From an uncultured Gemmiger sp. (GTDB lineage: Bacteria; Bacillota; Clostridia; Oscillospirales; Ruminococcaceae), in assembly GCA_947629015.1 (NCBI GenBank), contig CANRCB010000021.1:1-34369 (forward strand): DNA of 34,369 nucleotides. Reading direction: 5' to 3'. A program made the position numbers and the translations under genes. Within the stretch, counting starts at the first letter, position 1; each line of letters begins with the position of its first letter. Below are positions 5,058 to 30,900 of this stretch, in pieces. The notes beneath the pieces were generated by a model. It did not search any database. It saw only the letters and a list, made by a program, of their open reading frames with translations, and was not told the origin of the DNA.

Positions 5058-5074
5058 GTGTCCATCCTGGACAC
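5058..5074. promoter_or_regulatory. Dispersed palindrome, site 1
   Basis: GTGTCCATCCTGGACAC: 7-bp arms GTGTCCA/TGGACAC around 3 bases, between the Cro-like gene and the next gene. Identical arms occur at 15811, 17087 and 23850; a one-mismatch version occurs at 29778. It is probably a protein-binding site (see findings). Confidence 0.7.
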
Positions 5075-5088
5075 GGAGGGAGGTAGCA

Positions 5089-5370
5089 ATGGCAAGCACA
5101 AAACAGGATGCGCCGCACATCGACGTCGGCGGTTGGGCCACGGTCAGCCTGGTCAAGGATCGCATACGCATTGAACTCCAGAAGGAGGGTACGGATGAAC
5201 TCCTGCGCGCGCTGTATTCCCACAAGGAATCGCTGGCAGGGACGGTGCAGGGCATGGAAACCGACGCCAAGCTCTGTGAGATCATGGGCGGCGACCCGCA
5301 GCCCTACAGGCAGGAACTGGAAAAAGCCACGGCATTGTACAAGGCACTTCTGGAGTTCCGTTACCGGTGA
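5089..5370 (+). CDS. Early phage protein of unknown function
   Basis: The 93-residue protein is mostly alpha-helical by composition, with a beta-like start (GGWATVSLVKDRIRIEL). I recognise no family. The ribosome binding site GGAGGGAGG precedes the ATG. It lies 33 bp after the Cro-like gene, with the GTGTCC...GGACAC palindrome in between, and is probably co-transcribed with it. Confidence 0.75.
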   Translation: MASTKQDAPHIDVGGWATVSLVKDRIRIELQKEGTDELLRALYSHKESLAGTVQGMETDAKLCEIMGGDPQPYRQELEKATALYKALLEFRYR

Positions 5371-5429
5371 GCGTGGCACATTGGTATGCGGCCTGCCGGC
5401 CGCTGCCGTATCAGATAAGGAGGCGACCC

Positions 5430-5765
5430 ATGGAAAACCAACGGATTGACGGCATCCTGGATGCCTTTGCGGAGCTGCTGGCGCAGCGCGTGGCGGAGAA
5501 GCTGGGCGGGGTAACGGGCGGCAAAGAGGTGTACACCTACGATGAGCTTGCCGAGCGGTACGGCATGAGCAAGGCCAGCATTCGGCGCCTGGCGGCGGCC
5601 GGCGCTTTTGGCGAGCTGGTCAACGTGGGGGCGCGCAGCCACCGTGTGACGGCGGCCGGCGTGCGTCAATTTGAGAATTCGCGCAGCGGCGGGGGGATGG
5701 CGGCTGCCAGCGCTGCGCCAACCGGCAAGCGCCATGCAGCCCGGCGGGATCCCGGCCCGATCTGA
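5430..5765 (+). CDS. Excisionase-like helix-turn-helix protein
   Basis: The 111-residue protein starts with a helical N-terminus (FAELLAQRVAEKL). A winged-helix domain of the excisionase/MerR-like (HTH_17) type follows: YTYDELAERYGMSKASIRRL, with RSHRVTAAGVRQFE as the wing and last helix. The tail is low-complexity (SGGGMAAASAAP). ATG 5430 is supported by AAGGAGG. Such small early proteins often direct excision with the integrase, or act as early regulators. The DNA-binding fold is clear; the excision role is inferred. Confidence 0.75.
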   Translation: MENQRIDGILDAFAELLAQRVAEKLGGVTGGKEVYTYDELAERYGMSKASIRRLAAAGAFGELVNVGARSHRVTAAGVRQFENSRSGGGMAAASAAPTGKRHAARRDPGPI

Positions 5766-5949
5766 GACAGAGGGATCACATATGCGTCCACTGGGGGCCG
5801 GTTTATGACCCCGTTGGCCGTCAACAGGCCGGAGAATGAGCGGCTATACCTGTAAGGGGGACGCCGGACGTTGACAGCGCCGGGTTGTGACACACCACAC
5901 GGCTGCAATAAAAAGCGCGTTTGGCGGTATCGGCGCATAATTGACCGCT

Positions 5950-6485
5950 GCCAGGTGGCGATGCGGCTTTTTCACATCCGGGCCAAACCGCCATACCCGG
6001 TACCGCGCGGGCCGTCATCTGCCGCGCGGAGCGGGGTGCCCCCGCTGAGGTGAGAGCGGGCGCCTTATAAGCGCTTGACGACGGTTCGAATCCGCCCCTG
6101 ACGATAGCGCCCAGCGGGCGTTGAAGCGCGAGAAGTCAGGTAGACGGTGAATCCCGTTTGGCCGATGAAAAGACGCAGCGCAGGCGCGAAAGATATGACC
6201 CGTTGGCAAGGACACAAATGTCCCTGCCACGGTTTATATACCAGCCGCCACGAAAGACCGGGCAACATTGTGGGAAATGGCTATCCCGGCTGCAACCGCG
6301 AGAAACATAGCGGTGACAGCTCGGAGAGACGGGCTTTTGCTAATAGAGGCTACTCTTTGCAGAGGGTGAGCGGATGAAAACCCCGCTTGGCGGCCCGGAA
6401 GAGACGGGCAACACGCGGGTGCCAGGTTTGGGGGCGGGTTTCGCGCAGTTCCCCGCCCAGCGGTTCGATTCCGCCCACCTGCTTT
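5950..6485 (+). ncRNA. Candidate large structured RNA with tRNA-like parts
   Basis: From 5766 to 6512 no convincing protein gene is visible, but stem-loops with A/G-rich loops are dense. CCGCGCGG pairs at 6003-6010/6022-6029. TGGCAAGGACA pairs with TGTCCCTGCCA at 6204-6229 with one mismatch. ACCGC/GCGGT encloses GAGAAACATA at 6295-6314. CCGGG/CCCGG is at 6258-6289, GCCCG-GAAGAGA-CGGGC at 6393-6409, and GGGCGGG/CCCGCCC at 6432-6458. A T-arm mimic, GCGG-TTCGATT-CCGC, lies at 6460-6474. CAGGTGG (5952-5958) can pair with CCACCTG (6475-6481) to close the whole domain. Known phage RNAs of this kind (GOLLD, ROOL) are 500-800 bases and often sit beside tRNAs. Ends and identity are inferred. Confidence 0.45.
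6031..6104 (+). other. tRNA-like segment (anticodon arm TAT, T-arm), degenerate
   Basis: Parts fit a tRNA. A D-arm-like GCTG-AGGTGA-GAGC (three pairs) is followed by an anticodon arm GGCGC-CTTATAA-GCGCT (anticodon TAT, Ile). A 4-base variable loop leads to a T-arm GACGG-TTCGAAT-CCGCC with one mismatch, then CCTGACG and A. The matching 5' acceptor strand is not in place; CGTCA at 6013-6017 could pair with TGACG (6099-6103), but a 6-bp hairpin (6031-6045) intervenes. It is either a decayed tRNA or a tRNA-like domain of the structured RNA. Confidence 0.45.
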
Positions 6486-6512
6486 TAGACAGAAGGCAAA
6501 GGAAGTGGCACT

Positions 6513-6662
6513 GTGCGGGTGGGCTTGATCGATGTAGACGGGCACAACTATCCAAATCTGCCGCTGATGAAGCTGTCCGCATGGCACAAGGCCCGCGGCG
6601 CTGCGCCTTTTGCCATGTTGCTTGCAAGGCGGGGCCGCACAGTTACAGGGCAGCATGGCTGA
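6513..6662 (+). pseudogene. Truncated N-terminus of a phage 'GLIDVDGHN' protein
   Basis: The 49 codons start GTG after AAAGGA and read VGLIDVDGHNYPNLPLMK, then LSAWHKARG. As I recall it, this matches the conserved N-terminus of a much longer phage protein (often annotated radical-SAM-like) whose sequence normally continues GD-VEW after this point. Here the similarity stops at KARG and the frame closes at TGA 6660, so the gene looks broken by a deletion or frameshift. A short functional peptide cannot be excluded. Confidence 0.55.
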
Positions 6663-6710
6663 CGGAGTTTTGGCGGCGGCAATATAAAACCCAAAAAAGG
6701 AGTGAACCCC

Positions 6711-6941
6711 ATGAGCAAAGAGATTTACATCGTAAGCCCCGGCAGGATGCACGACATCGTCCTGCGGCCCGGCGACCCCACCAACGCGGGGCGGTTCCTG
6801 TGCCTTGAGAAGATCGACGGCCCCGGCAGAGACCCCGTGCTGGTCGCCTGCGACAACACCACCGGCGCCGCGTGGACCTTTGAGTTCAGCAGCGTGCCGG
6901 AGGCTACGGAGTGGCTGAGAAAGGAGGCGCCCTGTGGATAA
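6711..6941 (+). CDS. Small early phage protein of unknown function
   Basis: The 76-residue protein (MSKEIYIVSPGRMHD...) mixes beta-like and polar segments and matches no family I know. AAAAAAGGAG precedes ATG 6711. Its end overlaps the next gene by 8 bp, implying translational coupling in the early operon. Confidence 0.7.
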   Translation: MSKEIYIVSPGRMHDIVLRPGDPTNAGRFLCLEKIDGPGRDPVLVACDNTTGAAWTFEFSSVPEATEWLRKEAPCG

Positions 6942-7206
6942 GGAACAAACCACATTAAAGCCCTGCCCGTTTTGCGGCGGCAAAGCAAAAGTGCTTGAAG
7001 GCACAACAAGCAGTATTTTTGGTCATCTTTTCTACGACTACTGCGTCAAGTGTGCGGATTGCTCCGCGTTCCTTGGGCTGTATCAGGTCGGCGACTCCGC
7101 CGAGTTTGGCCTGCTGTACGATACCGAAAAAGAGGCCATAGAGGCATGGAACACAAGAGCCGCACAGGAAGGAACCCCGGAACAGGAGGCGACCGGCCAT
7201 GAGTAA
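6934..7206 (+). CDS. Lar-family zinc-ribbon protein (restriction alleviation-like)
   Basis: The 90-residue protein opens LKPCPFCGGKA (CPFC knuckle), has a second pair in CVKCADC, and ends with EKEAIEAWNTRA, the signature of the Lar family. E. coli Rac prophage Lar relieves type I restriction by stimulating the host methylase. Many phage homologues are known only by sequence, so that activity is an inference here. GTG 6934 is preceded by AAAGGAGG. Confidence 0.82.
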   Translation: MDKEQTTLKPCPFCGGKAKVLEGTTSSIFGHLFYDYCVKCADCSAFLGLYQVGDSAEFGLLYDTEKEAIEAWNTRAAQEGTPEQEATGHE

Positions 7207-7828
7207 AAAAGGACTGGCAGCAGCTGCAGGCATACCGGGCCACCGGCATGACGCCTTCAACTACCAGCGGGTTTATATTTGCAGCCCCTACCGGGGCGAC
7301 CCGAAGAAAAACGCCGAGCTGGCCCGCGCCTTCTGCCTGTCAATCGTCAAACGGTTCCCGCGCTCGATACCCATCGCCCCGCACATCTACTTCACGCAGT
7401 TTTTGAGCGATGACGACCCGGCGCAGCGGGATGCGGGGCTGGCGATGGGCCGGGCGATCCTCGCCACCTGCCAAGTGGTTTTGATTTTCGGCAGCGACGT
7501 CAGCGAAGGCATGAGAGCCGAGCTGCAAGAGGCGGCCCGCCTCGGCATCCCGGTATTCAATGGAGTGGCGGCAACAGCGGGCGTTGTTTCGGAAATGACC
7601 GTCGATTTTTGGGAAAAGCTGGTCGGCATCCCGAAACCCGCGCCCGTCGAGTGCCCGGCCCGCCGCCTGATAGACCCCGCGGATTTTGAGAGGTATATGC
7701 TTTTTGAATACCCGCACACACCCGGGAACCGGGACGCCGACATCGACGATGACAGCCTGCGGGCCATCCTCGACGCCGCCCACGAATACGCCAGGGCAAG
7801 GGGAATCGCCACCGACGGCAAGAAGTAA
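7199..7828 (+). CDS. Nucleoside-deoxyribosyltransferase-like protein (DUF4406/DUF7768 type)
   Basis: The 209-residue protein contains YICSPYRGD near the N-terminus, PIAPHIYFTQFL in the middle and FGSDVSEGMRAELQEAA before a short strand LGIPVFNG. This is the pattern of the phage nucleoside 2-deoxyribosyltransferase-like fold. The family is common in phage early regions; its substrates are unknown. CAGGAGG supports ATG 7199, which overlaps the Lar-like gene by 8 bp. A C-terminal extension (about 150-209) is not conserved in what I recognise. Confidence 0.78.
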   Translation: MSKKGLAAAAGIPGHRHDAFNYQRVYICSPYRGDPKKNAELARAFCLSIVKRFPRSIPIAPHIYFTQFLSDDDPAQRDAGLAMGRAILATCQVVLIFGSDVSEGMRAELQEAARLGIPVFNGVAATAGVVSEMTVDFWEKLVGIPKPAPVECPARRLIDPADFERYMLFEYPHTPGNRDADIDDDSLRAILDAAHEYARARGIATDGKK

Positions 7829-7879
7829 GGAACGTCGGCGCGCCGAGCGGGAAGTGCCGGGGCAGATGCGCTTTGAGGG

Positions 7880-7969
7880 ATGGGCATGACGCACCTTTCG
7901 TTGTTTTCCGGCATCGGCGGGCTGGATCTGGCCCGGCGGGAGAGGCGGGGGTGCTCCCGCCCCCGATAA
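7880..7969 (+). pseudogene. Remnant of a cytosine-C5 DNA methyltransferase
   Basis: Twenty-nine codons read MTHLSLFSGIGGLDLA, the start and motif I (AdoMet-binding FSGIGG) of C5-cytosine methyltransferases. After ARRER the frame closes at TAA 7967. All other motifs (PC, ENV, the target domain) are missing. A GC hairpin (GGCGGG-N6-CCCGCC) lies at the break. The gene was probably deleted to its first 20 or so codons; the peptide cannot be active. Confidence 0.75.
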
Positions 7970-7997
7970 TCTTAAACACAGGGAGGCTTTTGCTGCT

Positions 7998-8537
7998 GTG
8001 AAGCAAATAAGGACGCCTGCGCTCAGCGTAGCGGATGTCGCCCGTGCCGCCGATGCTGCCGGCATGAGCTATGGCAAGTATGTGCAGCAGATAGAAAAGG
8101 GGCGCAGCCAGGCCAGCGGTACCGCCGCTAAACCTGATACTGTTGCCAAGCCCGGCAACACAGTTATCAAGCCTGGCGATGCAGACACGCCAGAGCGCCG
8201 CGCACGAAAACAGCCGCCGGCGCCGCCGGAGGTCAGGGCCGCGGCGGTGCGGGCCGTGCTGGAGGGAGAATGCAGCGTGCGGGAAGCGGCCAAAAGGACC
8301 GGGTACCCGCGCGCCTCGGTGTACTGGTGGCTGCGTGTTGCGCAAGGCGGCAGGTCGCGGGGCGCGGACGCAACCCACAAGTATGTAAAGGCAAGCCCTG
8401 AGGCCAAAGCCGAGGCGGTGCGCACGGTGATGGCAGGCGAGCTCACGGTAAAGGAAGCGGCCGCTGCCATCGGCGTGTGTACCAATACGGTATACCTTTG
8501 GCTGAAAAAAGAAAAACAAAGAAAGGAGGGCAGATGA
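7998..8537 (+). CDS. Protein with two homologous helix-turn-helix units
   Basis: The 179-residue protein has a short N-terminal motif (ADAAGMSYGKYVQQIEKG), a Pro/Lys/Thr linker, and two similar helix-turn-helix repeats. The first is PEVRAAAVRAVLEGECSVRE followed by AAKRTGYPRASVYWWL; the second is PEAKAEAVRTVMAGELTVKE followed by AAAAIGVCTNTVYLWL. These resemble transposase/resolvase-type HTH units without a catalytic domain, so it probably binds DNA as a regulator. GTG 7998 follows GGGAGG at a rather long 11 bases. Its end overlaps the next ATG (ATGA). Confidence 0.78.
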   Translation: MKQIRTPALSVADVARAADAAGMSYGKYVQQIEKGRSQASGTAAKPDTVAKPGNTVIKPGDADTPERRARKQPPAPPEVRAAAVRAVLEGECSVREAAKRTGYPRASVYWWLRVAQGGRSRGADATHKYVKASPEAKAEAVRTVMAGELTVKEAAAAIGVCTNTVYLWLKKEKQRKEGR

Positions 8538-9196
8538 TCATGACGACATCTGCAAAAAACCAGACACCGCGGGCGCCCAAACCGCAGGATCCGGTCGCTG
8601 TGCATATGGATGGGCCGGTGTGTGTGGACGTGTGCCGCCGCGGCCTTTTGCTGCCGGATCCGAAACTGCCGGTGCTGACGCCGCCGGAGGCAGTCGGCGT
8701 GCAGCTGGCCGAGGTCAAAGGGGAGGCAACGCTGCTGCGCCTCGCGCTGCGCCCGGAAGCGTTGTGTGCGCTGCTGGACAAGGCATTCACACCCTGGGGC
8801 TGGTGCTGCCGGCGCTACAGCTGCGGCAGCGTGTTGTACACGGCGCTGGGGCTCTATAACAGCCGCACCGGGCAGATGGAGTACAAGGACGCCCCGGCGG
8901 GCCCGGTGGGGCGAAATGCCCCGGATCCGGCCGCCATAGCGGCGGACAGCGGGCTGGCGCGTGCCTCGGCGATGTGGGGCATTTGTGCCGATGTACAGTG
9001 CCTGCCGGCCCTGCGCGTGCCGACCGAGAAGGTGGGCGTTGTACCGGTGCCGGCCAAGGATGGTAAGACCGTTGCGGGCTACCGGCTGGCACAGCCGCTG
9101 CGCGTGGAGCAGTTTGCCCGCGACGAGGCCGGGCGCATCACGCACGTCCAGTTTGCAACGGCGACGGGGGCTAAGTTCGTATGGCCGGAAAGCTGA
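8534..9196 (+). CDS. Phage recombination-module protein (distant Rad52-like pattern)
   Basis: The 220-residue protein contains FTPWGWCCRRYSCGSVLYTAL, G-(L)YNSRTG-YKDAPAG, and an Ala-rich helix ending SAMWGICADVQCLPAL. The order of W/Y, K-D-G and a late WGI-LP motif recalls Rad52/Sak-type single-strand annealing proteins, but the match is weak. The next genes (NinB-like, HNH-like, SSB) are recombination genes, which fits. GGAGGG precedes ATG 8534; an upstream extension was rejected. It overlaps the following gene by 16 bp. Function is unproven. Confidence 0.7.
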   Translation: MIMTTSAKNQTPRAPKPQDPVAVHMDGPVCVDVCRRGLLLPDPKLPVLTPPEAVGVQLAEVKGEATLLRLALRPEALCALLDKAFTPWGWCCRRYSCGSVLYTALGLYNSRTGQMEYKDAPAGPVGRNAPDPAAIAADSGLARASAMWGICADVQCLPALRVPTEKVGVVPVPAKDGKTVAGYRLAQPLRVEQFARDEAGRITHVQFATATGAKFVWPES

Positions 9197-9723
9197 TAGC
9201 ACGGCTGCCGGTCAGCTTTTCCGGCAGCACGTGGAATGTTGACCCCGCCTACCGGTGGGAGCGCAAGCGCCTGTATGAGCGCTGCGGCGCGCTCAGCCGC
9301 GACGGCCCCGTGCGGTTGGTGGTGGAGATCCGCAGGGAAACCAACGCCCGCACACTGGATCAAAACCGGATGATGTGGCGGCTTTTGCGCATCATGGCCG
9401 AGCAGGACGACGGGCACGCCGGAAAAACGAGCGCCGAGGACTGCTATATCCGGCTGCTGGAGGAGCTTGGCGCGCAGGTCGACTACCTGGAAGTGCCTAT
9501 CCGCGCCGTGCCGCTGCTCAAAGAAGCGTGGCGGGTGGTCAAGATCATCGAGCTCAAGCCCGGCAACAAGGCCACCGTCAAGTGCGTAGCCGGCTCCAGC
9601 CATTTTGACCGCGCGCAGATGCGGGATTTTATCGACGCGATCTTCGACCGCCTGGCCGAGATGGGTGTGGACGATGCCGAAGTGACAGACTACTACCGGC
9701 AGTGGGGCGCGGCGCATGAGTAG
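9181..9723 (+). CDS. NinB-like recombination protein
   Basis: The 180-residue protein has RTLDQNRMMWRLLRIMA after an N-terminal beta region, the signature of NinB/Orf-type recombination mediators. The second half (VKCVAGSSHFDRAQMRDFID, then YYRQWG) follows the usual phage pattern. NinB/Orf of lambda assists strand exchange on SSB-coated DNA. It sits in a chain of overlapping genes with the preceding protein and the HNH-like protein. Family assignment rests on the LDQN motif and context. Confidence 0.7.
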   Translation: MAGKLIARLPVSFSGSTWNVDPAYRWERKRLYERCGALSRDGPVRLVVEIRRETNARTLDQNRMMWRLLRIMAEQDDGHAGKTSAEDCYIRLLEELGAQVDYLEVPIRAVPLLKEAWRVVKIIELKPGNKATVKCVAGSSHFDRAQMRDFIDAIFDRLAEMGVDDAEVTDYYRQWGAAHE

Positions 9724-10015
9724 AAGTATCTTGCAGGCGGCACACGAGTGCTATATCTGCCGGGCGGTCTACAACGTGCGTACGCCCGGCGGGTTGGAGG
9801 AACACCATGTCTTTCCCGGTAAACCGGGGCGTGCTTTGAGCGAAGAATACGGCCTCAAGGTGTGGCTGTGCGCGCCGCACCACCGTGACCCGGTGTTCGG
9901 TGTGCACTTTGACCCGGACATGATGCTCTGGCTCAAGCGGCGTGGCCAGCAAGCCTTTGAGCGCACCCATACCAGGGAAGAATTTGTCCGTCTGTTTGGC
10001 GGGAACTATCTGTGA
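9716..10015 (+). CDS. HNH-like zinc-binding nuclease
   Basis: The 99-residue protein has CYIC at the start (C12-C15), LEEHHVFPGKPGR, VWLCAPHHRDP and a C-terminal GQQAFERTH...FVRLFGGNYL tail. The Cys and paired His residues fit a small HNH/treble-clef nuclease of a kind common in phage recombination modules. The ATG overlaps the preceding stop region by 8 bp. Substrate unknown; a recombination-intermediate role is inferred from position. Confidence 0.72.
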   Translation: MSRSILQAAHECYICRAVYNVRTPGGLEEHHVFPGKPGRALSEEYGLKVWLCAPHHRDPVFGVHFDPDMMLWLKRRGQQAFERTHTREEFVRLFGGNYL

Positions 10016-10029
10016 AGGAGGTATTTTAC

Positions 10030-10395
10030 TTGGCGTACATAGCCGAAAGAAAAAGCGTTTTGGAGATGGCCCGCGGGGCTATCATGGAAAAGGTCGACGT
10101 CGAGCTCGACCGTGTGATGCAGAACATCATGGACCCCAATACCCCCCCTAAGGCCAAACGCCGCATCACGCTGACGCTGGAGTTCAGCCCGGCCGAGAAC
10201 CGGGCACGCATCGACATGAAGGCCCACTGCAAGAGCACGCTGGCCCCGAACATTGAGACCAGTACGGCCATTTGCATCACCAAAGGCCGTCAGGGTGAGC
10301 TGCTTGTTGCGGAGCTGCTGCCGCAGATCCCCGGCCAACTGGATGTGGACGGCAACGAAGCCCCGACGCCGGCGTTTGCCCGCATCGGGCACTGA
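10030..10395 (+). CDS. Conserved-type early phage protein, unknown function
   Basis: I place the start at TTG 10030, 8 bases after AAGGAGG (10015-10021); an in-frame GTG at 10012 would precede that site. The 121-residue product has a helical N-terminus and a beta-rich centre (KRRITLTLEFSPAENRARID), then IPGQLDVDG near the end. Such proteins are often found just before the next gene in Firmicute phages, but no activity is known to me. Confidence 0.72.
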   Translation: MAYIAERKSVLEMARGAIMEKVDVELDRVMQNIMDPNTPPKAKRRITLTLEFSPAENRARIDMKAHCKSTLAPNIETSTAICITKGRQGELLVAELLPQIPGQLDVDGNEAPTPAFARIGH

Positions 10396-10414
10396 TTGAA
10401 AGGAGACAAAACCC

Positions 10415-11161
10415 ATGAGCGACAACATTTTGGTCAATGCCATCCGGGAAATCGTCGGGATGGCCAAGCCGCAGATCTACGGCATCGAGGGGCACCAATA
10501 TGCCAGCGCTGAGCTGGTCGAGGTGCTCCCGCATGAAGACGTGCCGGATGCGCTGACCGTCCATACGCTGAAAAGCCTTGCCGACTACATCCGGCGAGAA
10601 GGCGTGAAGCACGCCGACAAGGAACACCCCCTCTTTGTGGAGGTGGACAGCTACAGGAGCGTGACGGTGCGCAGCTCGCTGACAGCCGGCCTGAGCACGA
10701 ATTTCCTGCGCCGCACCTTCTACCGTGCCGAGAGTGACGTGCCACGGTTTGAACTCGGCTGGATGGATCTGGAAAAGCGCATCATCCAACTGCGCGCCCA
10801 GTGCGCCGATACGGACGGCCGCAACGAGCTGCTGGAGATGCTGAGTTCCGTCTGCCGGGAGGAGGGCACCGTCAGCAGCGACAACGGTGTCACGCAGGAG
10901 GTCATCGTGCGCGAGGGCGTCGCCTTAAAGGAGATGGCACAGGTGAAGCCTTACGTCACGCTGCAGCCGTACCGTACTTTTTTGGAGGTCGAACAACCGG
11001 TCAGCGAGTTCCTGCTGCGCCTCGATAAGGACTGCAATGTCGGCCTGTTCGAGGCGGACGGCGGCGCCTGGAAGCTGGAGGCGGCGCGGAACATCGGGTC
11101 CTGCCTTGAGACCGAGCTCGCGCAGGAGATCAACGACGGGCTCGTGATGGTGACGATCTGA
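10415..11161 (+). CDS. Conserved-type phage protein beside SSB, unknown function
   Basis: The 248-residue protein contains LTVHTLKSLADYI, a beta section with VDSYRSVTVRSSL, GVTQEVIVREGVAL, LQPYRTFLEVEQPVSEFLLR and GLFEADGGAWKLEA. The arrangement is one I associate with phage proteins encoded next to single-strand DNA-binding proteins. No catalytic motif is evident; it may be a structural partner in recombination or replication. AAAGGAGA precedes the ATG, and the stop overlaps the SSB start (TGATG). Confidence 0.72.
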   Translation: MSDNILVNAIREIVGMAKPQIYGIEGHQYASAELVEVLPHEDVPDALTVHTLKSLADYIRREGVKHADKEHPLFVEVDSYRSVTVRSSLTAGLSTNFLRRTFYRAESDVPRFELGWMDLEKRIIQLRAQCADTDGRNELLEMLSSVCREEGTVSSDNGVTQEVIVREGVALKEMAQVKPYVTLQPYRTFLEVEQPVSEFLLRLDKDCNVGLFEADGGAWKLEAARNIGSCLETELAQEINDGLVMVTI

Positions 11162-11592: not shown

Positions 11593-11617
11593 GATCCGCT
11601 GACCTTTGGTGTATCCC

Positions 11618-11657
11618 GGGGCCGCGTTTTGCGCAAAAACGCGGAAAATGCGGCCCC
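11618..11657 (+). terminator. Hairpin between ssb and the replication genes
   Basis: GGGGCCGC (11618-11625) and GCGGCCCC (11650-11657) pair, and GCGTTTT/AAAACGC pair inside. It is not followed by a clean T-run (TGTATTAAAG), so it may be an attenuator or mRNA-processing hairpin rather than a full terminator. Confidence 0.45.
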
Positions 11658-11692
11658 TGTATTAAAGTTAGCCATTTTTAGGAGGTACAGCC

Positions 11693-13940: not shown

Positions 13941-14747
13941 ATGAAGACCATCGCGATCATCAACCTGAAGGGCGGGGTGGGCAAGAGCGTAACCACCGTC
14001 AACCTGGCGGAGCGGCTGGCGGCGCGCGGCTACAGCGTGCTGGTCGGCGACCTTGACAAGCAGGCCAACACCACCAAGTTTTTCCACCTGCTGGACTATG
14101 ACCGGCCCAGCATGAGCGACATCCTCAAAGAAACGGCGGGCATCCACGATATACTTGGACGGTGTGTTTTCAAGACGCCTGGCAGTACGCTGACCATCGA
14201 CGTGTTGCCGGCCAACATGACGCTGCTGGCCGCCAACCGCGAGGTGCTGCTGGATATGCTGCATCCGCAGCAGAACCGGCTGCGGGCGGCGCTGCAGCCG
14301 CTGCGCACGCTGTACGACGCGGTGCTGCTGGACTGCCCGCCGGATCTTGACATAGGCAGCATCAACGCCCTGTGCGCGGCGGATCGGGTCATCGTGCCGG
14401 TGGACTGCGACGAGTGGGCCTCGGATGGGCTGGATGTGATGCTGGAGCAGATCAGGGCCGTGCGCGACGGGTTCAACCCGGAGCTGCGGCTGCTGGGCGT
14501 GCTGATCACCAAGTATCTGCGCACCAACCACAATGCCCGCGTGGCCAAAGAGCTTGCCCGGCGGGATGTGCCGCTTTTGACCACCGTCATCCGGCAGACC
14601 GTCAAGGTCAAGGAGAGCATTGCGGCGCACAAGCCGCTGGCGCTGTACGACGCCGGCTGCACCGCCGCGCAGGACTATGACGCGCTGGCGGATGAGGTGA
14701 TACTGAAAACCGGAATGCCGGCAGCACAGCACAAGGAGGAAAATTGA
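13941..14747 (+). CDS. parA: ParA-type partition ATPase
   Basis: The 268-residue protein has the deviant Walker A KGGVGKS (10-16), DLDKQANTT (A' motif), and LLDCPPDLDIGSINAL (Walker B), as in Soj/ParA ATPases. There is no N-terminal helix-turn-helix, so it resembles type Ib or chromosomal Soj rather than P1 ParA. It would move ParB-bound DNA along the nucleoid. AAGGAGG precedes the ATG, and parB starts one base after its stop. Partition genes in a prophage suggest plasmid-like or extrachromosomal stages, or a regulatory use. Confidence 0.94.
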   Translation: MKTIAIINLKGGVGKSVTTVNLAERLAARGYSVLVGDLDKQANTTKFFHLLDYDRPSMSDILKETAGIHDILGRCVFKTPGSTLTIDVLPANMTLLAANREVLLDMLHPQQNRLRAALQPLRTLYDAVLLDCPPDLDIGSINALCAADRVIVPVDCDEWASDGLDVMLEQIRAVRDGFNPELRLLGVLITKYLRTNHNARVAKELARRDVPLLTTVIRQTVKVKESIAAHKPLALYDAGCTAAQDYDALADEVILKTGMPAAQHKEEN

Positions 14748-14748
14748 A

Positions 14749-16176
14749 ATGGCAGGCTTTTCCATCAATTCCATTCTGAACGGCGTCAGCCAGGCGCCGG
14801 CCGGGGAGCGCATGGATGTGGCGCTCATCGAGCATGACCGCATCCGGCCAAACCCTGAAAACCAGAAGATCTATGTCATCGGCAACGTGGATGCGCTCAA
14901 GGCCGACATTTTGGCAAACGGGTTGCGCCAGCCCCTCGAAGTGATACCGGCCGGGGACGGCGGCTACATACTGCTGGGCGGTGAACGGCGTTGGACGGCG
15001 CTGGGGCAGCTGGTCACCGAAGGGCAGGAGCGCTTTGCCCGCGTGCCGTGCATCGTGCGCGAGAGCCACGGCGCGGACGACGACCTGCTGGCGTTGATCA
15101 CCGCGAACAGCACCGCGCGCGAGCTGACCGATGGCGAGCGCCTGGCGCAGTATGAGGCGCTTAAACGCATCTACGAGAAGAAAAAGGCCAGCGGTGGCCT
15201 CTCCGGCCGCGTGCGGGACGCGATGGCCGAAGTGTTGGGTGTGGGCGCCGGGACGTTGGGGCGGCTCAACGCCATCTCCGAGCACTGCACCAACGAGGTC
15301 AAGGCGATGCTGCGCGAGGGCAAGACCACGCTGACCAGGGCCTACGACGCCAGTAAACTGTGGCCGCGCCAGCAGGCGAAGTACTGCCGCGACGGGTATG
15401 CGCCGAAACTGCCGGGTGTCAATGACGAACTGTACGAGAAGGTAAGAAACTGGGCAGCGGAAAACCTCCCGTTCGAGGGCGTCGACTGGATGGCCGACGA
15501 CTACTACAAATGCGGGTTCTGCGACAGTCTCGGAAAGCTCGAAGGCAGGAGCTTTGATATGCGGAACGGCCTGCGTGCGGTGCTTCAACCCAGCAGGTGG
15601 AACGTGACTTTTTTCCTGCTCAATACCGAAGACGAGAACGACGCCTATGCTGTGGGGAACATTACACCATATCACCTGTATATGGCTGCGCGCAAGGTGC
15701 ATCTGACGCCGGAGCAAAAGGCGGAGCTGGAGGCGCGCAGGGCGGCGCCATCGACGGCCGGGGATGCGGATGACCCGGCGGAGCCGGAGACCGCGGCGCC
15801 CGGCGGGGATGTGTCCAGTGTGGACACGCGCGAGGAGCGGCTTGATGAGATCGTCGACGAGCTGATGACCGGCGAGTTGCCGGGGATGTGGACGCTGATG
15901 CGGCATGACGGTATCCTGCACATCGGCAGCTATATTCTCGACCTGCCGGATGAGCAGCACTTGATGATGATCAACCTTGAGGGCGAAGTGAACGACGAGA
16001 ACGACCGCCTGTATCTGCGTGTGCATAACAACGGTGCGATCATCCCGATGGATGAGGAGAGCCCCGACTACATCGGCTGGATGAACGTTTATGGGAATGA
16101 TGACCCTATCCGTACCGCGCTGCGCGATGCGGCCGAGCTGCTGCTGGACGGGGAGGCGGCTGACCATGCGGATTAA
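14749..16176 (+). CDS. parB: ParB-like DNA-binding protein (CTPase type)
   Basis: The 475-residue protein has the ParB/Srx N-terminal domain: IRPNPENQK, LKADILANGLRQPLEVIP, and the CTP-binding GGERRWTAL. A central helix-turn-helix region follows (LSGRVRDAMAEVLGVGAGTL). The C-terminal half (about 225-475) is much longer than in ordinary ParB. It carries CGFC, an acidic linker and a mixed alpha/beta end of unknown role. AAGGAGG precedes the start. The gene contains one of the GTGTCC...GGACAC palindromes (15811-15827), which may be its own binding site. Confidence 0.92.
   Translation: MAGFSINSILNGVSQAPAGERMDVALIEHDRIRPNPENQKIYVIGNVDALKADILANGLRQPLEVIPAGDGGYILLGGERRWTALGQLVTEGQERFARVPCIVRESHGADDDLLALITANSTARELTDGERLAQYEALKRIYEKKKASGGLSGRVRDAMAEVLGVGAGTLGRLNAISEHCTNEVKAMLREGKTTLTRAYDASKLWPRQQAKYCRDGYAPKLPGVNDELYEKVRNWAAENLPFEGVDWMADDYYKCGFCDSLGKLEGRSFDMRNGLRAVLQPSRWNVTFFLLNTEDENDAYAVGNITPYHLYMAARKVHLTPEQKAELEARRAAPSTAGDADDPAEPETAAPGGDVSSVDTREERLDEIVDELMTGELPGMWTLMRHDGILHIGSYILDLPDEQHLMMINLEGEVNDENDRLYLRVHNNGAIIPMDEESPDYIGWMNVYGNDDPIRTALRDAAELLLDGEAADHAD
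15811..15827. promoter_or_regulatory. Dispersed palindrome, site 2 (inside parB)
   Basis: GTGTCCAGTGTGGACAC has the same 7-bp arms as the site at 5058. It lies in the low-complexity linker coding part of parB, a region free to hold a DNA site. Confidence 0.7.
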
Positions 16177-17086: not shown

Positions 17087-17103
17087 GTGTCCAACCTGGA
17101 CAC
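17087..17103. promoter_or_regulatory. Dispersed palindrome, site 3
   Basis: GTGTCCAACCTGGACAC lies in the 157-bp gap between the late regulator and the methyltransferase, 3 bp before a terminator. It has the same arms as sites 1, 2 and 4. Confidence 0.7.
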
Positions 17104-17105
17104 GG

Positions 17106-17137
17106 ACCCGACGTATGCAACGCGTCGGGTTTTATAT
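17106..17137 (+). terminator. Terminator of the early operon
   Basis: ACCCGACG and CGTCGGGT form an 8-bp stem with a 9-base loop, followed by TTTATATTT. It separates the early genes from the late operon. No convincing standard promoter is seen in the short gap before the methyltransferase, consistent with late transcription needing a phage factor. Confidence 0.8.
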
Positions 17138-23501: not shown

Positions 23502-23518
23502 GCCGACGGGGGATCTAC

Positions 23519-23830
23519 ATGGTAAGCGATGAGTACCTTGCAAAGATCCGCTTTGCGGTGCGCCGGTCGACCGGCAACAAGGATGTCGACACGGAGTTGA
23601 CAGACATCATCGAGCAGGCGCGTGCGGATATGATCCGCAAAGGTGTGTCGGAGACGGTCGCCAACGACGAGAGCGACGCGATGGTGCTGGGGGCCGTGCG
23701 CAGCTTTGCCCGCTGGCGCTTTGGTATCGGCGGCGATGACGCCGATACCAACCATGCGGCCTACGATATCGACACTGAGCAGCTTCGCAAGACGGCTGCC
23801 AGAGCGGAGGCACCTAATGTATTTCAGTGA
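23519..23830 (+). CDS. Head-tail connector (HK97 gp6-like)
   Basis: The 103-residue helical protein (YLAKIRFAVRRSTGNKDVDT, IIEQARADMIRKGV, AVRSFARWRFG) has the pattern of gp6-like adaptors that form a ring under the portal. Start ATG 23519 follows CGGGGGA. It ends overlapping the next gene by 14 bp. Confidence 0.86.
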   Translation: MVSDEYLAKIRFAVRRSTGNKDVDTELTDIIEQARADMIRKGVSETVANDESDAMVLGAVRSFARWRFGIGGDDADTNHAAYDIDTEQLRKTAARAEAPNVFQ

Positions 23831-24167
23831 TGAGATCGAGCTGGGGAACGTGTCCAGCCTGGACACACCTACCGGCGAGGGGTATCCGCAAGAGCGGGTG
23901 TTCACACCTGACCGGAAAGTCTATGCCGATCTGCGCAGTGTGCGCAGGGAAGAGTTTTACAAGGCGGCCGCTGCCGGCATAGCGGCGGCCGCCATCTTTG
24001 CTGTGCACCCGGAAGATTACCGCGGCGAGAGTGCCGTGCGCCATGCCGGCCGCCTGTATGCGGTCGTGCGCAGCTATGAAAACGGCAAAGAAGTTGAACT
24101 GACGTGCAAAAACCTGACCACGACACCCGGCGCTATACCAGACAAAGGAGCCAGCCATGCGATTTGA
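23817..24167 (+). CDS. Head closure / head-tail adaptor protein
   Basis: The 116-residue beta-rich protein (ERVFTPDRKVYADLRSVRRE, RHAGRLYAVVRSYENGKEVE) matches SPP1 gp16-type head-completion proteins in size and position. The dispersed palindrome at 23850-23866 lies in its first codons. Overlaps both neighbours. Confidence 0.82.
   Translation: MYFSDEIELGNVSSLDTPTGEGYPQERVFTPDRKVYADLRSVRREEFYKAAAAGIAAAAIFAVHPEDYRGESAVRHAGRLYAVVRSYENGKEVELTCKNLTTTPGAIPDKGASHAI
23850..23866. promoter_or_regulatory. Dispersed palindrome, site 4
   Basis: GTGTCCAGCCTGGACAC lies 33 bases into the head-closure gene, in its variable N-terminus. Arms are identical to sites 1-3. Confidence 0.7.
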
Positions 24168-24938: not shown

Positions 24939-25518
24939 AGGTCAAAAGATGCAGGGCTATTGCCCGCTGACCATCACAGAGAACAAGGACGGCACCACCA
25001 CTGAGGTGCCCGGCACCGGGAAGATCACCCGGCACGTGATCAGCTTCAACGGCGCAAAGGGCTCCGACAGTAGCGATATGTATGCCGGTGATGTGCTTGA
25101 TTTCACCGCTCCGGCCAACGAGGGCACTGTCCAGTTTGTGCTCAGCCAGCTGCCGCTGGAAGATGAGGCTGTTTTTGGCGGCCACAGCTACAGCGAGGAG
25201 ACCGGCCTGGTCGACAAAGAGGGCGATGCGCCTCCGTTTTTGCGTTATGCCTGCCTTGGCGTCGGGTCGAAAAAAGACGAAGACAATAAGCAAAAGGATT
25301 TCTATCGCCTTTTGATGTACCACAAGGTGCAGATGGGGCCTATCGAGGACGTGTTGCAGACGCAGGAAAAGACTGTGAAATGGCAAAGCCATACCTGCGC
25401 GGGCAAGTGCTACTACGACAATGAACACCTGATGGTAACAAAAAGGGATTTTGACGCCGACAATTACGCCGACGCCGTAAAGGCGATGAAAACCTTCCTG
25501 AACATTACGGAGGAGTGA
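24919..25518 (+). CDS. Major tail tube protein
   Basis: The 199-residue protein contains GQKMQGYCPLT near the N-terminus and VLDFTAPANEGTVQFVLSQL-like strands, then KDFYRLLMYHKVQMGPIEDV and TLEVKW-like TVKWQSHTCAGKCYYD. It fits Firmicute siphovirus major tail proteins and lies right before the tail chaperones. The start may be ATG 24919 (AAGGGGGA ahead) or ATG 24928. Confidence 0.88.
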   Translation: MTTMALKGQKMQGYCPLTITENKDGTTTEVPGTGKITRHVISFNGAKGSDSSDMYAGDVLDFTAPANEGTVQFVLSQLPLEDEAVFGGHSYSEETGLVDKEGDAPPFLRYACLGVGSKKDEDNKQKDFYRLLMYHKVQMGPIEDVLQTQEKTVKWQSHTCAGKCYYDNEHLMVTKRDFDADNYADAVKAMKTFLNITEE

Positions 25519-25523
25519 GCCGT

Positions 25524-26003
25524 ATGCGGTACATCACCTTGGGCGGGGTCAAATACCCCATACAAGCCACCGTCGGCGTGATCGGCGACGCGACCGAGCG
25601 GCTTTTGCAATGCCTTGCCGAGGCAGAGGAGCGCGCCCAGGACGAGGCCGACGAGCGCGGCCTGGACGACGCACACCGTGAAAAGCTGGTCACGCGGAGG
25701 CGTGAGGCTGCTCATCGGCGGTATCTTGCCGACGCGCGTAACAGCCTGGCTGTGATCGCGGATCTTGTCAATGCAGCTGTCGCGCGCGAGAAGTTGCTGA
25801 ACGGCAAGGATATTGCCGCAGAGGTGCCGCATTACCCGTTGACTGCTGAAAAACTCGTGCTCATTGCCTCCGCGGAGGATCTGAACGGGGAAGAAAACAG
25901 CAAGGCCATCGCGGCCGAGCTGGCTGAATGGGGCCCACCCGGCGAAAAAAAAGTGGCCGCCAACCGCCTGATGACGGCGGCGCAGATGATCCTGACGGCA
26001 TAA
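25524..26003 (+). CDS. Tail assembly chaperone (G-type)
   Basis: The 159-residue protein is the short product of the tail-chaperone pair; it is very charged and helical in the middle (RAQDEADERGLDDAHREKLV), fitting a chaperone that coats the tape measure. The zero-frame codons GAA AAA AAA GTG contain A-AAA-AAA at 25946-25952. A -1 shift there continues into an overlapping frame. Confidence 0.85.
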   Translation: MRYITLGGVKYPIQATVGVIGDATERLLQCLAEAEERAQDEADERGLDDAHREKLVTRRREAAHRRYLADARNSLAVIADLVNAAVAREKLLNGKDIAAEVPHYPLTAEKLVLIASAEDLNGEENSKAIAAELAEWGPPGEKKVAANRLMTAAQMILTA

Positions 26004-26176
26004 GGGGAACCTTTGCCCGGCTCCAATATGGTACCTGCACCATACTGGGGTACACCCTTGCGGAATATCGACTGCTAACCCTGCGGGAGATCGACCGCCA
26101 GATGCAGATCCATGCGCAGACGGTTGGCGAAGCGACCGGCGCCGACAATGTTGACGAAGATGGGGTGAGTTTTTAA
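25524..26176 (+). CDS. Tail assembly chaperone GT, by -1 frameshift
   Basis: Ribosomes slipping -1 on A-AAA-AAA (25946-25952, in correct codon phase) would resume at AGT 25952 and read SGRQPPDDGG... FARLQYGTCTILGYTLAEYR ... GVSF to TAA 26176. This gives a product of about 217 residues. The added 74 residues have the T-domain pattern that binds the tail tube and tape measure. Position between major tail and tape measure genes is diagnostic, and the second frame has no start or ribosome binding site of its own in a good place. Confidence 0.85.
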
Positions 26177-27910
26177 ATGCCCAGCAATTTGCCGAAAATC
26201 GGCGCACAGATGGTGCTGGAGGGTGAGCGGGAATACCGCGATGCTTTACGCAATATCAATGCCGGCTTACAGGTGAATTATGCGCAAATGGCCCTTGCGG
26301 CCGAGCAGGCGCGCACCATGGGCAGCGAGGAAGCCGCGCTACGTGCCAAAAGCGAAGCCCTTGGCGACGCAATCACCAGCCAGCGTGAAAAGGTGGCCTT
26401 GTTGGCCGACCGTGTGGCCTACGCCGCCCAAACCTATGGTGAGGGCAGCGATAAGGCCCTTTCTTACCAGGCAACACTGCTGCGCGCTGAGGCCCAACTC
26501 GCCAAGATGGAGGGCACACAGGCGGAATATACAGCCGCACTGGCCGAGTGTACCGATGCGCAGAACGAGACCGCGGAGGCCGCCGAGGACAGCGCGCAGC
26601 GCTTTCTCAGCCTGGCTGACGTGGTCAATGACGTTTGTGATGCCTTTGGTATCAGCCTGCCACCGGCGCTGCAGGGCGCCGTTGACAAGCTGGGCAACGT
26701 CAACGCTGCTGCGGCCGGGGCTGTCACTGTTGTTGGCGGGCTGGTCGCGGGGCTGGGCTCGTTGACGATGGAAACCAGTAAAACCGCCGACGATTTGCTG
26801 ACCCTGAGCGCGCAGACGGGGCTTTCCACCGACCAGTTGCAGGAATTTGCCTATGCCAGCGAGCTTGTGGACGTCAGTATGGACACGCTGCAGGGCAGCC
26901 TTTCCAAGTTGACCAACAATATGCAGGATGCGGCCAAGGGCAGCGGTAACGCGCACGATGCTTTTGATAAGCTCGGCGTAAAGGTGGCGGACGCGCATGG
27001 CAAGCTGCGCGATGCCGATGAGGTCTTTTTGGATGTCATCGACGCGCTGGGGCAGGTCGAAGGCGCCACCGACCGCGACGCGCTGGCCATGGATATCTTT
27101 GGCCGCAGCGCACAAGATCTGAACCCCTTGATTCAGGCAGGCAGTGACCGTCTGGCCGAACTTGCTGAGCAGGCCCATGAGGCAGGTTATGTGCTTGATA
27201 ACGAGACGCTGCAGAGTTTCGGCGCGCTTGATGATTCGATGCAGGAACTGGACAAAAAGTTTGATGCCGTCAAGCGCACGCTGGCGCAGGCGCTTTTGCC
27301 GGTGCTCTCGACACTGGCGGAGTTCCTTTCCAGCATCCCCACAGATGTGATCACCTTTGTGGCGGCCGCCGGCAGTGCGGTGCTGGTGATCACCAGCGTG
27401 GCCAAAGCAATTACCTCGGTTTCCAGTGCAATGGCGATTCTATCGCCGGCGTTGGCGGGGGTGGGCACCGGTGCGGCCATCGCCGGCGGAGGGCTCACCT
27501 CAATGCTGCCGATCATCATGGGTGTTGTGGCGGCAGGGTTGCTGCTCGTCAGTGTGTTCATGATGGTCAAGGACATTTTTGGCGGCACGAATGAATCTTC
27601 ACGGGATATGAACCGCACGCTTGCCCAAGTCAACAACACGGTGGCCAATATGCCGCGGCACGCGCGCGGTACGCCCTATTGGGGCGGCGGCGAGACGTGG
27701 GTCGGCGAAGAAGGCCCGGAGCGCGTTGTGCTGCCGCGCGGTACGCGCATCTATTCAGCCACGCAAAGCCGTATGGCGGCAGGTGATACGGGCGGCAGTT
27801 CGGTCATCATCCAGAGCCTGAATGTGACCATAGATGCCAAAAATGTCCGGGAGTTCAACGATATCGTAAGGATCGCCGAGAATGAGGCGACGCGGATCCG
27901 CCAGGGGTGA
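26177..27910 (+). CDS. Tape measure protein
   Basis: The 577-residue protein has an N-terminal helical region (ALRNINAGLQVNYAQMALAA...), a long alpha-helical centre with TADDLLTLSAQTGLSTDQLQ and FGRSAQDLNPLIQAGSD, two hydrophobic stretches (about 390-470), and a C-terminal Gly-rich part (VGEEGPERVVLPRG). This is the usual plan for siphovirus tape measures; the length implies a fairly short tail. ATG starts right after the frameshift product's stop. Confidence 0.94.
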   Translation: MPSNLPKIGAQMVLEGEREYRDALRNINAGLQVNYAQMALAAEQARTMGSEEAALRAKSEALGDAITSQREKVALLADRVAYAAQTYGEGSDKALSYQATLLRAEAQLAKMEGTQAEYTAALAECTDAQNETAEAAEDSAQRFLSLADVVNDVCDAFGISLPPALQGAVDKLGNVNAAAAGAVTVVGGLVAGLGSLTMETSKTADDLLTLSAQTGLSTDQLQEFAYASELVDVSMDTLQGSLSKLTNNMQDAAKGSGNAHDAFDKLGVKVADAHGKLRDADEVFLDVIDALGQVEGATDRDALAMDIFGRSAQDLNPLIQAGSDRLAELAEQAHEAGYVLDNETLQSFGALDDSMQELDKKFDAVKRTLAQALLPVLSTLAEFLSSIPTDVITFVAAAGSAVLVITSVAKAITSVSSAMAILSPALAGVGTGAAIAGGGLTSMLPIIMGVVAAGLLLVSVFMMVKDIFGGTNESSRDMNRTLAQVNNTVANMPRHARGTPYWGGGETWVGEEGPERVVLPRGTRIYSATQSRMAAGDTGGSSVIIQSLNVTIDAKNVREFNDIVRIAENEATRIRQG

Positions 27911-27914
27911 AACA

Positions 27915-30900
27915 ATGGCTATAAAAAAGACAGCAACACAGGTGTCCCGCAATATTAACTATTATGGATTTACGATGGTAGGCATAGAGCCCAAAATGGG
28001 CGACGGGATGATTGTGGATGGAAATGTATCAGTCACGATGACTGTGGCCAATTATGACGCAACATGTGGGGCCCTTATATCAGGTAGCGTACGACTGTAT
28101 CCAACAAACTTTGAGCCTTTTTCTTTTGACGTATATATACACACGTTAGAAACTGAAGGTGATCGATCGTATATTGGTTTCCATTATGAAAATTATCCGT
28201 CGACATCAGATGCGAGTGTCAGGAGAGAGGTCGATGTACGAGATCTGACGGCATCTTGGACGGAATATCGTCAATATGTTACACCCAGTATCCGTACGCC
28301 TGTTGGGACTTATATAAAAATTCCAACCTGCACTTTCCAGTGGACGAACGATGCAGTCTTTCCTAGCGATGCACAACTCAGCTGGGTACAGATCCGGGCA
28401 AAAGGTGCAGAGGAATATGTCAATTTGGCAAGCGTTGCGGGTATTGGTACGGAGTTGACGGCCCGCATCCCCGATGACATCCTGGCCGCAGAGGGCTTTG
28501 ACTGGCGTGTGGCGACGCTTTCGGAACTCGGCAACTGGAAATACAGCGCGGAGGCAAGTTGTACATATAAGGTGCCGAGTTTGAGTGCCACGGGTCTTTA
28601 TCCCACCGGGACGATCTATCAGGGCTTTGCAACGACCTTTGGTTGGAGCCTTAAAAGCTCTGAGGCCGGCGTATACCAGACTGGTGCCACGCTGCAGTAC
28701 AGGGAGGGACCCAGCGGCACAATCAAATCGGCTGCCACGGTAACCGGCCAAACGAGCACGGTCACCGTAGGCGCCAATATTCTGCCCGCCGGTAGTCTGC
28801 AATGGCGCGTCATCATTACCACCAATGCGGAAATAACAGTTGAAAGCGCTTGGCAAAACTGCAACAACGCTGTACCGCCTGTAAGTCTTACGGATTTATC
28901 ACCAACTGGTACGATATACCAAGGCTTCCCGCAAGTTTTCCGTTGGAAGTTTAGCAGCACGCTGCAGGGTGTTTCACAAACCAAAGCGGAGATCCATTAC
29001 CGTGCAAAGGGTGCTTCTGATTATCAGGTGACCGGCAATGTAACCGGAGATGGCGGCACGGTAACGGTGGCAGCCAATGTCCTGCCAAAGGGTGCTTTTG
29101 AATGGTGCGTTATGGTCACCATCAATACTGGCCATACATCTACAAGCGCCTGGCAAAGCTGCAACAACGCAGAGCCTCCACTCACACTGAGCGATCTCTA
29201 CCCCACCCAGAAAACCTATCATGGTTTCCCGCAGATTTTCCGGTGGGCGCTCAGCTGCCCTGTGGCGGGCGTATATCAAACCGGCGCTGAGATACAGTAT
29301 CGCTCGGAAGGTTCGGCGAGCTATAAGGTTGCGGGCAGGGCATCTGGCAGTGCCAACAATACCACGGTTGCCGGTAACGTTTTGCCTGTTGGGAAATTTG
29401 ATTGGCGGGTCATGGTTACCGTCAACACCGGGCATACAGCCACAAGTGCTTGGCAGAACTGCACCAACGTCGAGGTGGCGATCTCCGTCACCGGTATGTT
29501 TCCGGACGCCTCCGGCCAAGCCCCCAGCAAGGTGCAGAACCGCTTTGGCTGGACGTTCGTAGCCGATGATGAGGATGCGCCTGGCGCAGTAACACAAGTG
29601 AGCGCCGTATTCCATTGGCGTCCGGCGGGACAGGGGGCATACAAAAACGTCAACGTGGCGGGCACGGCACAGTATGTTGATATTCCGGCGGGGGTTTTCC
29701 CAGCCAAAAGCCGCATCGACTGGTATGTCGAGGTTGTAGCCAACACGGGCACAAAAGCTACCAGCGCGGTGGTCACTGTGTCCACAGCGGACACGCTTTC
29801 GACCCCGGTGGCCATCAGCCCGGCAGGATCGTTTTTAGATGACAGCGTGGAAGGTATCCTGTTCACTTGGCAGCATACCAATACCACAGGAACCCCACAG
29901 ACCGGCTATGAGCTGAGTTACAGCCGCGACAGTGGCGCCTCATATACGGTGATGCAGACGGCGGACGGGGCTGCCGTAAGCTGGCGAAGTGAACCCAAGG
30001 CGTTCCCGGTGACGACGATCTATTGGCGCGTGCGCACCAAAAACAGCGACGGTGACTACGGCAACTACAGCGCACCGGCGATTTTTGCGGTACGCCGCAA
30101 TCCGGATGCGCCGGCCATCACTTTTTTTGACCAAAAGCCGCTTCCCTCGATTGCCTGGCAGAGCGAATCGCAGACGGGATTTGAGGTTGAGATCGATGGA
30201 AAGAGTTACGGAATGCGCTATGGTTCTGATAAGATGTGGCGCAGCCCTGATCTGCTGGCCGATGGGCAGCATACCATCCGGGTGCGTATCGTGAACCAAT
30301 ACCGTGATATCAGTGATTGGGCTGCGGTGACGGTGAACGTACAGAACATACCGCGCGAGGGTGTGCGCCTCTCCGTTGCGGAGGAATGGGCACAGGTGCG
30401 GGCCAGTTGGGAACTGGCCGAGGGCTTTGTGACCGTCTGCCTCTTGCGGGACGGGGTGCTCATTGCGGTACTGGCCATGCAGGCCGGCGGGTACGTGGAT
30501 CGCACCAGTGTGGGCAGCCACAGCTATGTGCTGCGGGCTTTTGACCCCGACGGATACTATACCGACAGCGCGCCCGCGACAGCTGCCCCACGCGTGCCGT
30601 ATGCGGCCATTGGGCCACTGCTGGGAGATGACTGGATCGCACTCAAATATTCGCCCTCGCTCGACCGTTACAGCTGCAACGACAGCCAGCAGGGCAGCTT
30701 TGTGCAGTTTTACGGTCAGAAGCGCCCCGTATGGCGTCCCTCCGGCAGCCAGCGCACGGTGCACAGCCTGAGCTATGCGAAAAAGCGCGGCGAGGATCTG
30801 GTTCCGCTGTTGAGCCTGGAGGGCCAGGTGGCCGTATATAAGGACTACGAGGGACACCTGGCCGTTGGCGTGTTTTCCACGGTGCAGATGGGCTGCGGAC

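Follow-up and report, generated by a model that had tools for sequence, protein, structure and literature searches.

A dispersed palindrome that is probably the partition site of a ParB protein encoded by a Gemmiger prophage

What protein reads a palindrome that is scattered over an integrated prophage, and to what end? The palindrome, GTGTCCA-N3-TGGACAC, is found in a 34,369-nucleotide stretch of DNA (the window) from an uncultured Gemmiger species, which is the entire contig C21 of the genome G000 (2,214,481 bases, 75 contigs, 87% complete). The prophage in this window also encodes a ParA and a ParB protein. From the comparisons presented here, the palindrome is probably a parS-type site for the ParB that the phage itself encodes, and its roughly six copies would form a distributed centromere. 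The prediction that this ParB binds the palindrome is made with high confidence; the purpose of the binding is proposed with less.

Scanned with up to one mismatch, the window contains the palindrome at five places. Four are perfect and the fifth has a single inner mismatch, a C in place of T at motif position 11, that leaves the outer 6+6 bases intact (sites 1–5, Table 1). Dinucleotide shuffles gave a mean of 0.01 places and none of 100 reached five; when up to three mismatches were permitted, eight places were found vs 1.27 expected. A preliminary description of this DNA had listed the same four perfect sites and one mismatched site and had judged them too rare to be expected, and both points are borne out by the scan and the shuffles. 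Its placement of the sites in gaps or coding stretches also agrees with the gene map, where sites 1 and 3 are intergenic and site 2 is in parB. A sixth copy is located on contig C23 (1301–1317), between a phage holin gene and the right attachment site (attR). Across the 2.2 Mb of G000, which is 87% complete, the five places in the window and the one on C23 were the only matches within one mismatch, while the reversed pattern had none. All six belong to one prophage. The preliminary description would have counted a motif that is equally common on the host chromosome against a ParB site; at this threshold, no site was found beyond the prophage.

The site was refined with an alignment of 25 sites, chosen on the 12 outer bases, that are spread over seven stretches belonging to five Gemmiger prophages. 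All 25 have a pyrimidine directly before and a purine directly after the palindrome; therefore, the fuller site in Gemmiger prophages is YGTGTCCRNNNYGGACACR. Positions 7 and 11 are A or T in 48 of 50 half-site readings and the central bases are free. The flank rule is weaker outside of the Gemmiger lineage (57/76). By reading, the three coding copies in the window have a common frame, V-S-x-x-D-T.

The Gemmiger prophage sites also recur with respect to their placement: in the early region, around parAB, between an ArpU-like gene and the packaging genes, and near the head genes. A site close to the repressor and early region is also present in G001, G004 and G011, and the parB linker of G011 has a one-mismatch copy that matches the location of site 2. 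The ArpU-like gene is followed by a site in all five Gemmiger ParB prophages, which in four of them precedes a detected HNH or methylase gene, and a site follows the holin gene in G000, G001 and G004. Even spacing of the sites was considered and rejected as a general property, since the P values for so small a largest gap were 0.029, 0.794, 0.061 and 0.185 in four phages.

A comparison of 100 genomes, G000 included, was made with a relaxed pattern. The pattern was found at 54 places in 22 genomes, whereas its reversed form had seven places in the entire set. A ParB of the window clade is encoded by five genomes, with a ParA beside it in each. These five hold 27 of the 54 places, and 25 of the 27 fall within the ParB prophage (G000, 6/6; G001, 5/5; G004, 6/7; G011, 3/3; G023, 5/6, where two contigs that each contain part of parB were joined by inference). 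The clustering in G004 is not an effect of assembly because this genome is a single 3.2 Mb contig. Together, the five prophages contain 25 copies with all 12 outer bases and five more with one mismatch. The canonical parS sequence was not found in G000 within one mismatch. With two mismatches, five genomes each have two copies of GTTCCACGTGGAAC next to their chromosomal parB genes, an assignment that rests on position since total matches were more numerous for the reversed control. Separately, two identical copies of GTGTCCGGTTTGGACAC with starts 18 bp apart were observed on a 4.7 kb contig (G041:C214, 423–457).

The association was also approached from the ParB sequence. A query with the ParB alone (alignment A1) identified 32 viral loci, 15 of which contain GTGTCC-N5-GGACAC, some being near-copies of each other. 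For the 29 whole records, exact sites were present in 14 and sites with one mismatch only in six (20/29 within one mismatch), leaving nine with none; the reversed control was found in 0/29. A palindrome of any sequence repeated at least three times was detected in 10 of 31 ParB-found loci vs 4 of 113 control loci, and in six of the ten it was the GTGTCC/GGACAC site. The position of the site relative to parB was examined in 61 distinct ParB-like frames with start codons chosen by script. A site was located within approximately 60 nucleotides of the chosen start in 23 frames: inside the coding start in 15, all in one reading frame, and upstream in eight, of which three (L347, L351, L364) do not share the parB frame. 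Since many of the 61 frames were found through the motif, the unbiased figure is that of the distinct ParB-found genes, for which 8 of 29 have a site between −60 and +75 nucleotides of the start vs 0.24 expected.

Starting from the motif instead, a scan of IMG/VR produced at least 120 loci, and a reversed-pattern control in nearly equal DNA produced 113. Two or more sites are present in 21 of the at least 120 motif loci, and each of the reversed-pattern loci has one. Relatives of the window ParB were found in 13 of the motif loci vs none of the control loci (Fisher p = 2e-4) and relatives of the window ParA in 19 vs none (Fisher p = 2e-6). Among the matches listed, a ParB_N match (E ≤ 0.001) was present in 13 of 21 multi-site whole records vs 1 of 15 control records, and a match above the curated cut-off in 8 of 21 vs 0 of 15. 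Two further multi-site records have a ParB that was detected by tblastn.

The site varies among ParB relatives while retaining its symmetry. Eight of nine window-clade ParBs are accompanied by exact sites and the ninth, L343, is switched. There is no GTGTCC site in L343, and its 45 kb record (G150) contains 12 perfect copies and one near-perfect copy of GTGTCAC-N3-GTGACAC, which was absent from the other 28 records. Five phage-database records were found with the ParB query, and exact sites are present in three of them (4, 4 and 1). The remaining two records, L376 and L377, have two copies each of GTGCCC-N5-GGGCAC, one of which is near the parB start. The peptide encoded at that position is VPESGT vs VSNSDT; because the peptide changes while the palindrome stays, this suggests that the DNA rather than the encoded peptide is conserved. 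A palindrome with seven copies in L344, CTCCCC-N6-GGGGAG, was considered as a second exception and was rejected, as it has long conserved flanks and L344 has two GTGTCC sites as well. The copies, of a CTCCCCTTGCCAGGGGAG-type repeat at 3289–9836, probably belong to a dispersed repeat of the host.

The site is also present in Cormatin, an inducible prophage of Flavonifractor plautii. One of its four copies is in the annotated head-tail adaptor gene, a second is beside terS, a third is within a hypothetical gene, and the fourth is in the start of ParB. The Cormatin ParB (L373, 27019–28569) is annotated as a hypothetical protein and adjoins a ParA-like protein.

As the preliminary description had proposed, the window encodes a ParA-ParB pair with a long ParB; the two genes are adjacent (Table 1). 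The ParB may be considered in terms of a ParB CTPase fold, a helix-turn-helix (HTH) domain, a further domain, a linker, and a C-terminal part. The PF02195 score is 27.4 bits vs a cut-off of 26.3. Profile searches of the PDB matched Noc, Spo0J, ParB and KorB, and a fold search agrees with respect to the N domain and HTH; no fold was listed for residues beyond approximately 225, a negative result that carries little weight. The structure model has a mean predicted local distance difference test (pLDDT) score of 78, with residues ~21–240 mostly above 90 and a low-scoring linker. R172, within the predicted recognition helix, is invariant in all 46 aligned ParBs, as are G78, R80, R81, N120 and R124.

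Two positions bear on hydrolysis of cytidine triphosphate (CTP). Position 119, matched to E111 of Bacillus subtilis ParB by way of a Noc alignment, is A, T, S or G in 46/46 and never glutamate. The position aligned with B. subtilis E78 is H in 36, E in nine (the window included), and G in one. According to one report, the E78Q and E111Q forms of B. subtilis ParB lose CTP hydrolysis and spread more widely (PMC8494293). From these alignments, we infer that the phage ParBs bind CTP with weak or different hydrolysis. The ParA-binding motif (L/F/I)G(K/R)G(L/F/I), as defined for canonical ParB in PMC12704722, was not seen by reading in the N terminus of the window ParB, MAGFSINSILNGVSQ. Overall, the prophage has the protein components of a ParABS system, a Walker-type ParA encoded with a protein composed of a ParB_N/CTPase fold and an HTH, and its ParB lacks the N-terminal ParA-binding motif and the E111-type glutamate of canonical chromosomal ParB (Spo0J).

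Table 1. Palindrome copies and other features of the prophage (window coordinates).
Feature	Position	Strand	Description
attL region	1296..1345	.	Repeat in common with C23 1441-1478, by reading
Operator-like palindrome	4807..4825	.	GCTACGCGATACGCGTAGC; between PR-like promoter and cro; single occurrence in window; separate from ParB set
Site 1	5058..5074	.	GTGTCCATCCTGGACAC; intergenic, 2 bp past cro stop, before first early gene
parA	13941..14747	+	268 aa Walker-type ATPase; PF13614 E 1.2e-42, phrog_164 E 4.5e-56
parB	14749..16176	+	475 aa; PF02195 E 3.4e-6, phrog_4715 E 8.2e-37
Predicted ParB recognition helix	15247..15285	+	Residues 167-179; model pLDDT ~96-98; predicted role
Site 2	15811..15827	.	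GTGTCCAGTGTGGACAC; within parB, low-confidence linker preceding C-terminal part, in frame VSSVDT
Site 3	17087..17103	.	GTGTCCAACCTGGACAC; intergenic, between ArpU-like gene and methylase and packaging genes
Terminator-like hairpin	17104..17132	+	Directly 3' of site 3; consensus match only
Site 4	23850..23866	.	GTGTCCAGCCTGGACAC; head-tail adaptor gene 23817-24167, at its 5' end; VSSLDT
Site 5	29778..29794	.	GTGTCCACAGCGGACAC; within tail gene, VSTADT

Several observations weigh against a ParB site. Starting from ParB, 8 of the 29 whole records lack the GTGTCAC variant and contain no copy of the motif at up to one mismatch, and the repeated palindrome was a different one in four of ten ParB-found loci (L344, L349, L355, L361). 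Two unrelated Gemmiger ParBs (L187, L192) had no site within 20 kb each; therefore, not every ParB uses the palindrome. No residue of the recognition helix was found that tracks the site variants. Starting from the site, 6 of 21 multi-site records have no ParB match among the matches listed. Two of the site-bearing phages, G108 and G116, carry the same dispersed site and a DUF3102 protein in place of ParB, and neither ParB nor DUF3102 was found in the fragment records G104, G105, G110 and G120, the source genome of G104 being that of the ParB-bearing G103. In the comparison of 100 genomes, the remaining 27 of 54 places are spread over 17 genomes without a window-clade ParB, and no ParA or ParB was detected with the sites of G031:C2 (three), G010:C10 (two) and G009:C25 (one). 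Lastly, Cormatin is listed without a 3C (chromosome conformation capture) signal in vitro or in vivo in the published table of PMC10197239, where its virome and circularisation signals are present.

The expectation that sites track parB across relatives was upheld on balance, with exceptions. In its favor are the 25 of 27 places within ParB prophages, the fact that ParB queries recover the motif from roughly half the records, and the symmetric variants in three relatives. The other half of the 54 places speaks against it, and the presence of the motif in relatives lacking parAB, which had been named as grounds for refutation, was partly observed, at a frequency to be read against the seven reversed places in 100 genomes. 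In the stretches without ParB, the neighbors of several sites resemble genes that flank sites in ParB phages, and for this reason module exchange or a co-resident ParB could explain such sites. The site may also go with ParA, the partner protein, and not with ParB by itself, since G108 and G116 have DUF3102 in place of ParB and in G108 it sits directly after ParA. The DUF3102 proteins at L014 11711–12430 (directly after ParA) and L104 721–1659, from phages with the same site, are possible alternative ParBs, and G031:C2 143727–166550 is a prophage with its three sites in the usual kinds of places.

Four other explanations were considered. In the first, ParB binds the sites as a KorB-like regulator with the main job of controlling transcription of the early, late and lysis operons over long distances by sliding clamps, partition being secondary. 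This is possible, if rather unlikely, and its odds overlap with those of the centromere because the binding step is common to both. The recurrence of sites by the repressor and early region, between the ArpU-like gene and the packaging genes, and after the holin would fit such a regulator, as would the presence of KorB among the structural matches and the fact that an integrated prophage is already segregated by its host. However, ParA adjoins ParB in every Gemmiger member, several sites lie within structural genes, and promoter-like matches overlap neither site 1 nor site 3.

In the second explanation, which is improbable, another factor common to these mobile elements reads the site, and ParB or the DUF3102 protein is a mere neighbor. 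The site-bearing stretches without a detected ParB and the two DUF3102 phages are consistent with this. It fits poorly with the fixed position of the site at parB and with the switched sites of ParB relatives, and no window protein has a match in every site-bearing Gemmiger stretch, although a full all-against-all comparison was not run.

The preliminary description had offered the operators or stoperators of a second repressor as an alternative, and such a role for a phage repressor or Cro is now very unlikely. The sites are dispersed and one is directly past cro, but the place of an operator between promoter and cro is held by another palindrome (4807). Furthermore, the site is constant while the cI-like repressor varies, being 84% alike in G011 and 36–40% in G001, G010:C10 and G073, with none found in G004, and the sites recur at the parB starts of other phages. 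An RNA hairpin or terminator element with a 7-bp stem and 3-nucleotide loop has as little to recommend it: site 3 is directly 5' of a terminator-like hairpin and the C23:1301 copy was read as part of a longer inverted repeat that has T after it, where a terminator scan limited to short loops found none, but one sequence is kept and not any stem (all 12 outer bases are intact in 25 copies, and just five more have one mismatch), the conserved pyrimidine/purine flank is outside of the stem, most copies lack a T run, and a stem pair is broken in site 5.

The parS-type reading given in the preliminary description is therefore supported by comparison, from the association with ParA and ParB, the recurrent placement, and the symmetric variation, all drawn from sequence. 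In the proposed mechanism, the ParB HTH would read GTGTCC/GGACAC as a dimer, and binding would load a CTP-bound ParB clamp that slides into the adjacent DNA. ParA would move or position the ParB-coated phage DNA, either an excised circle or replicating copies, and possibly the integrated prophage too. With copies at the start of the early region, before the late genes and downstream of the holin, ParB may dampen or insulate transcription; that its sites regulate early and late genes is a guess.

The system appears to be of a known kind, represented by N15, KorB and Noc. What appears to be new, as far as the papers searched show, is the class of site, its setting in an integrated prophage, and the recurrence of its placement. 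KorB of plasmid RK2 is alike as a ParB-fold protein with an HTH, from the structural match. It acts from dispersed operators in long-range regulation, and its operator differs from the window palindrome. It has 14% identity to the window ParB over the aligned region. Noc and chromosomal ParB/Spo0J are the best profile and fold matches for the N-domain and HTH, and Noc has many dispersed sites. In contrast, the phage ParB is 475 amino acids in length with no glutamate at the E111-aligned position, and the host palindrome beside the chromosomal parB genes differs from the phage site. In phage N15, the IR sites are dispersed in the genome. The N15 Sop system is described in PMC7205306 as a ParA/ParB-type pair of a phage with four separate palindromic sites, IR1–IR4. 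The N15 prophage is a linear plasmid with GTGCGACC/GGTCGCAC sites, whereas the window prophage is integrated, has GTGTCCA-N3-TGGACAC, and places copies within structural genes. Mycobacteriophage stoperators are asymmetric and bound by the immunity repressor, whereas the window site is palindromic and tracks ParA/ParB; like the window sites, they are distributed over a temperate phage genome (PMC9283540). A survey of the ParB-CTPase fold includes divergent ParB-like proteins of prophages and plasmids without the usual ParA-binding motif, but the term "palindrom" is absent from its main text and no phage ParB site was found in the part available (PMC12704722). Literature searches of open-licence papers found none with a GTGTCC/GGACAC site, which weakly supports its absence from print.

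The left end of the window is the end of a ribosomal RNA operon, followed by the prophage. Its genes are ordered as integrase, repressor/cro, replication genes (SSB, DnaB), ParA, ParB, ArpU-like, methylase, terminase, head and tail, several of these being named by reading. Contig C23 starts inside a glycosyl hydrolase 25 lysin gene and continues with the holin gene, the palindrome copy, an att repeat, and an intact transfer RNA (tRNA) gene, an order from which C23 is read as the right end of the prophage. By reading, this right-end/att stretch recurs to the left of attL, at window 950–1078 and L005 1331–1460, and looks like a remnant of another integration at ~420–1300. Approximately 0.95 kb of the window (5766–6710) has no convincing gene; a borderline tRNA-like Rfam match is located at 6044–6096.

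The observations may be joined in a bolder reading, which is rather unlikely. The palindrome would define a widespread class of phage centromere, in which ParB clamps bind CTP and hydrolyse it poorly, a feature proposed because the E111-type glutamate is missing from all 46 aligned members. The clamps would load at fixed sites close to operon boundaries, at parB itself, and within virion genes, coating the whole phage genome and coupling its positioning to early, late and lysis transcription even when integrated, and some phages without ParB would exploit the ParB of a co-resident phage. For a large group of phage ParBs that have been little studied, the palindrome is a candidate centromere defined by its sequence, with Cormatin in F. 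plautii as a test case in a cultured host. With the natural variants GTGTCAC and GTGCCC, changes in ParB specificity can be studied in pairs. The finding also raises the question of why an integrated prophage keeps a full ParABS set across its genome.

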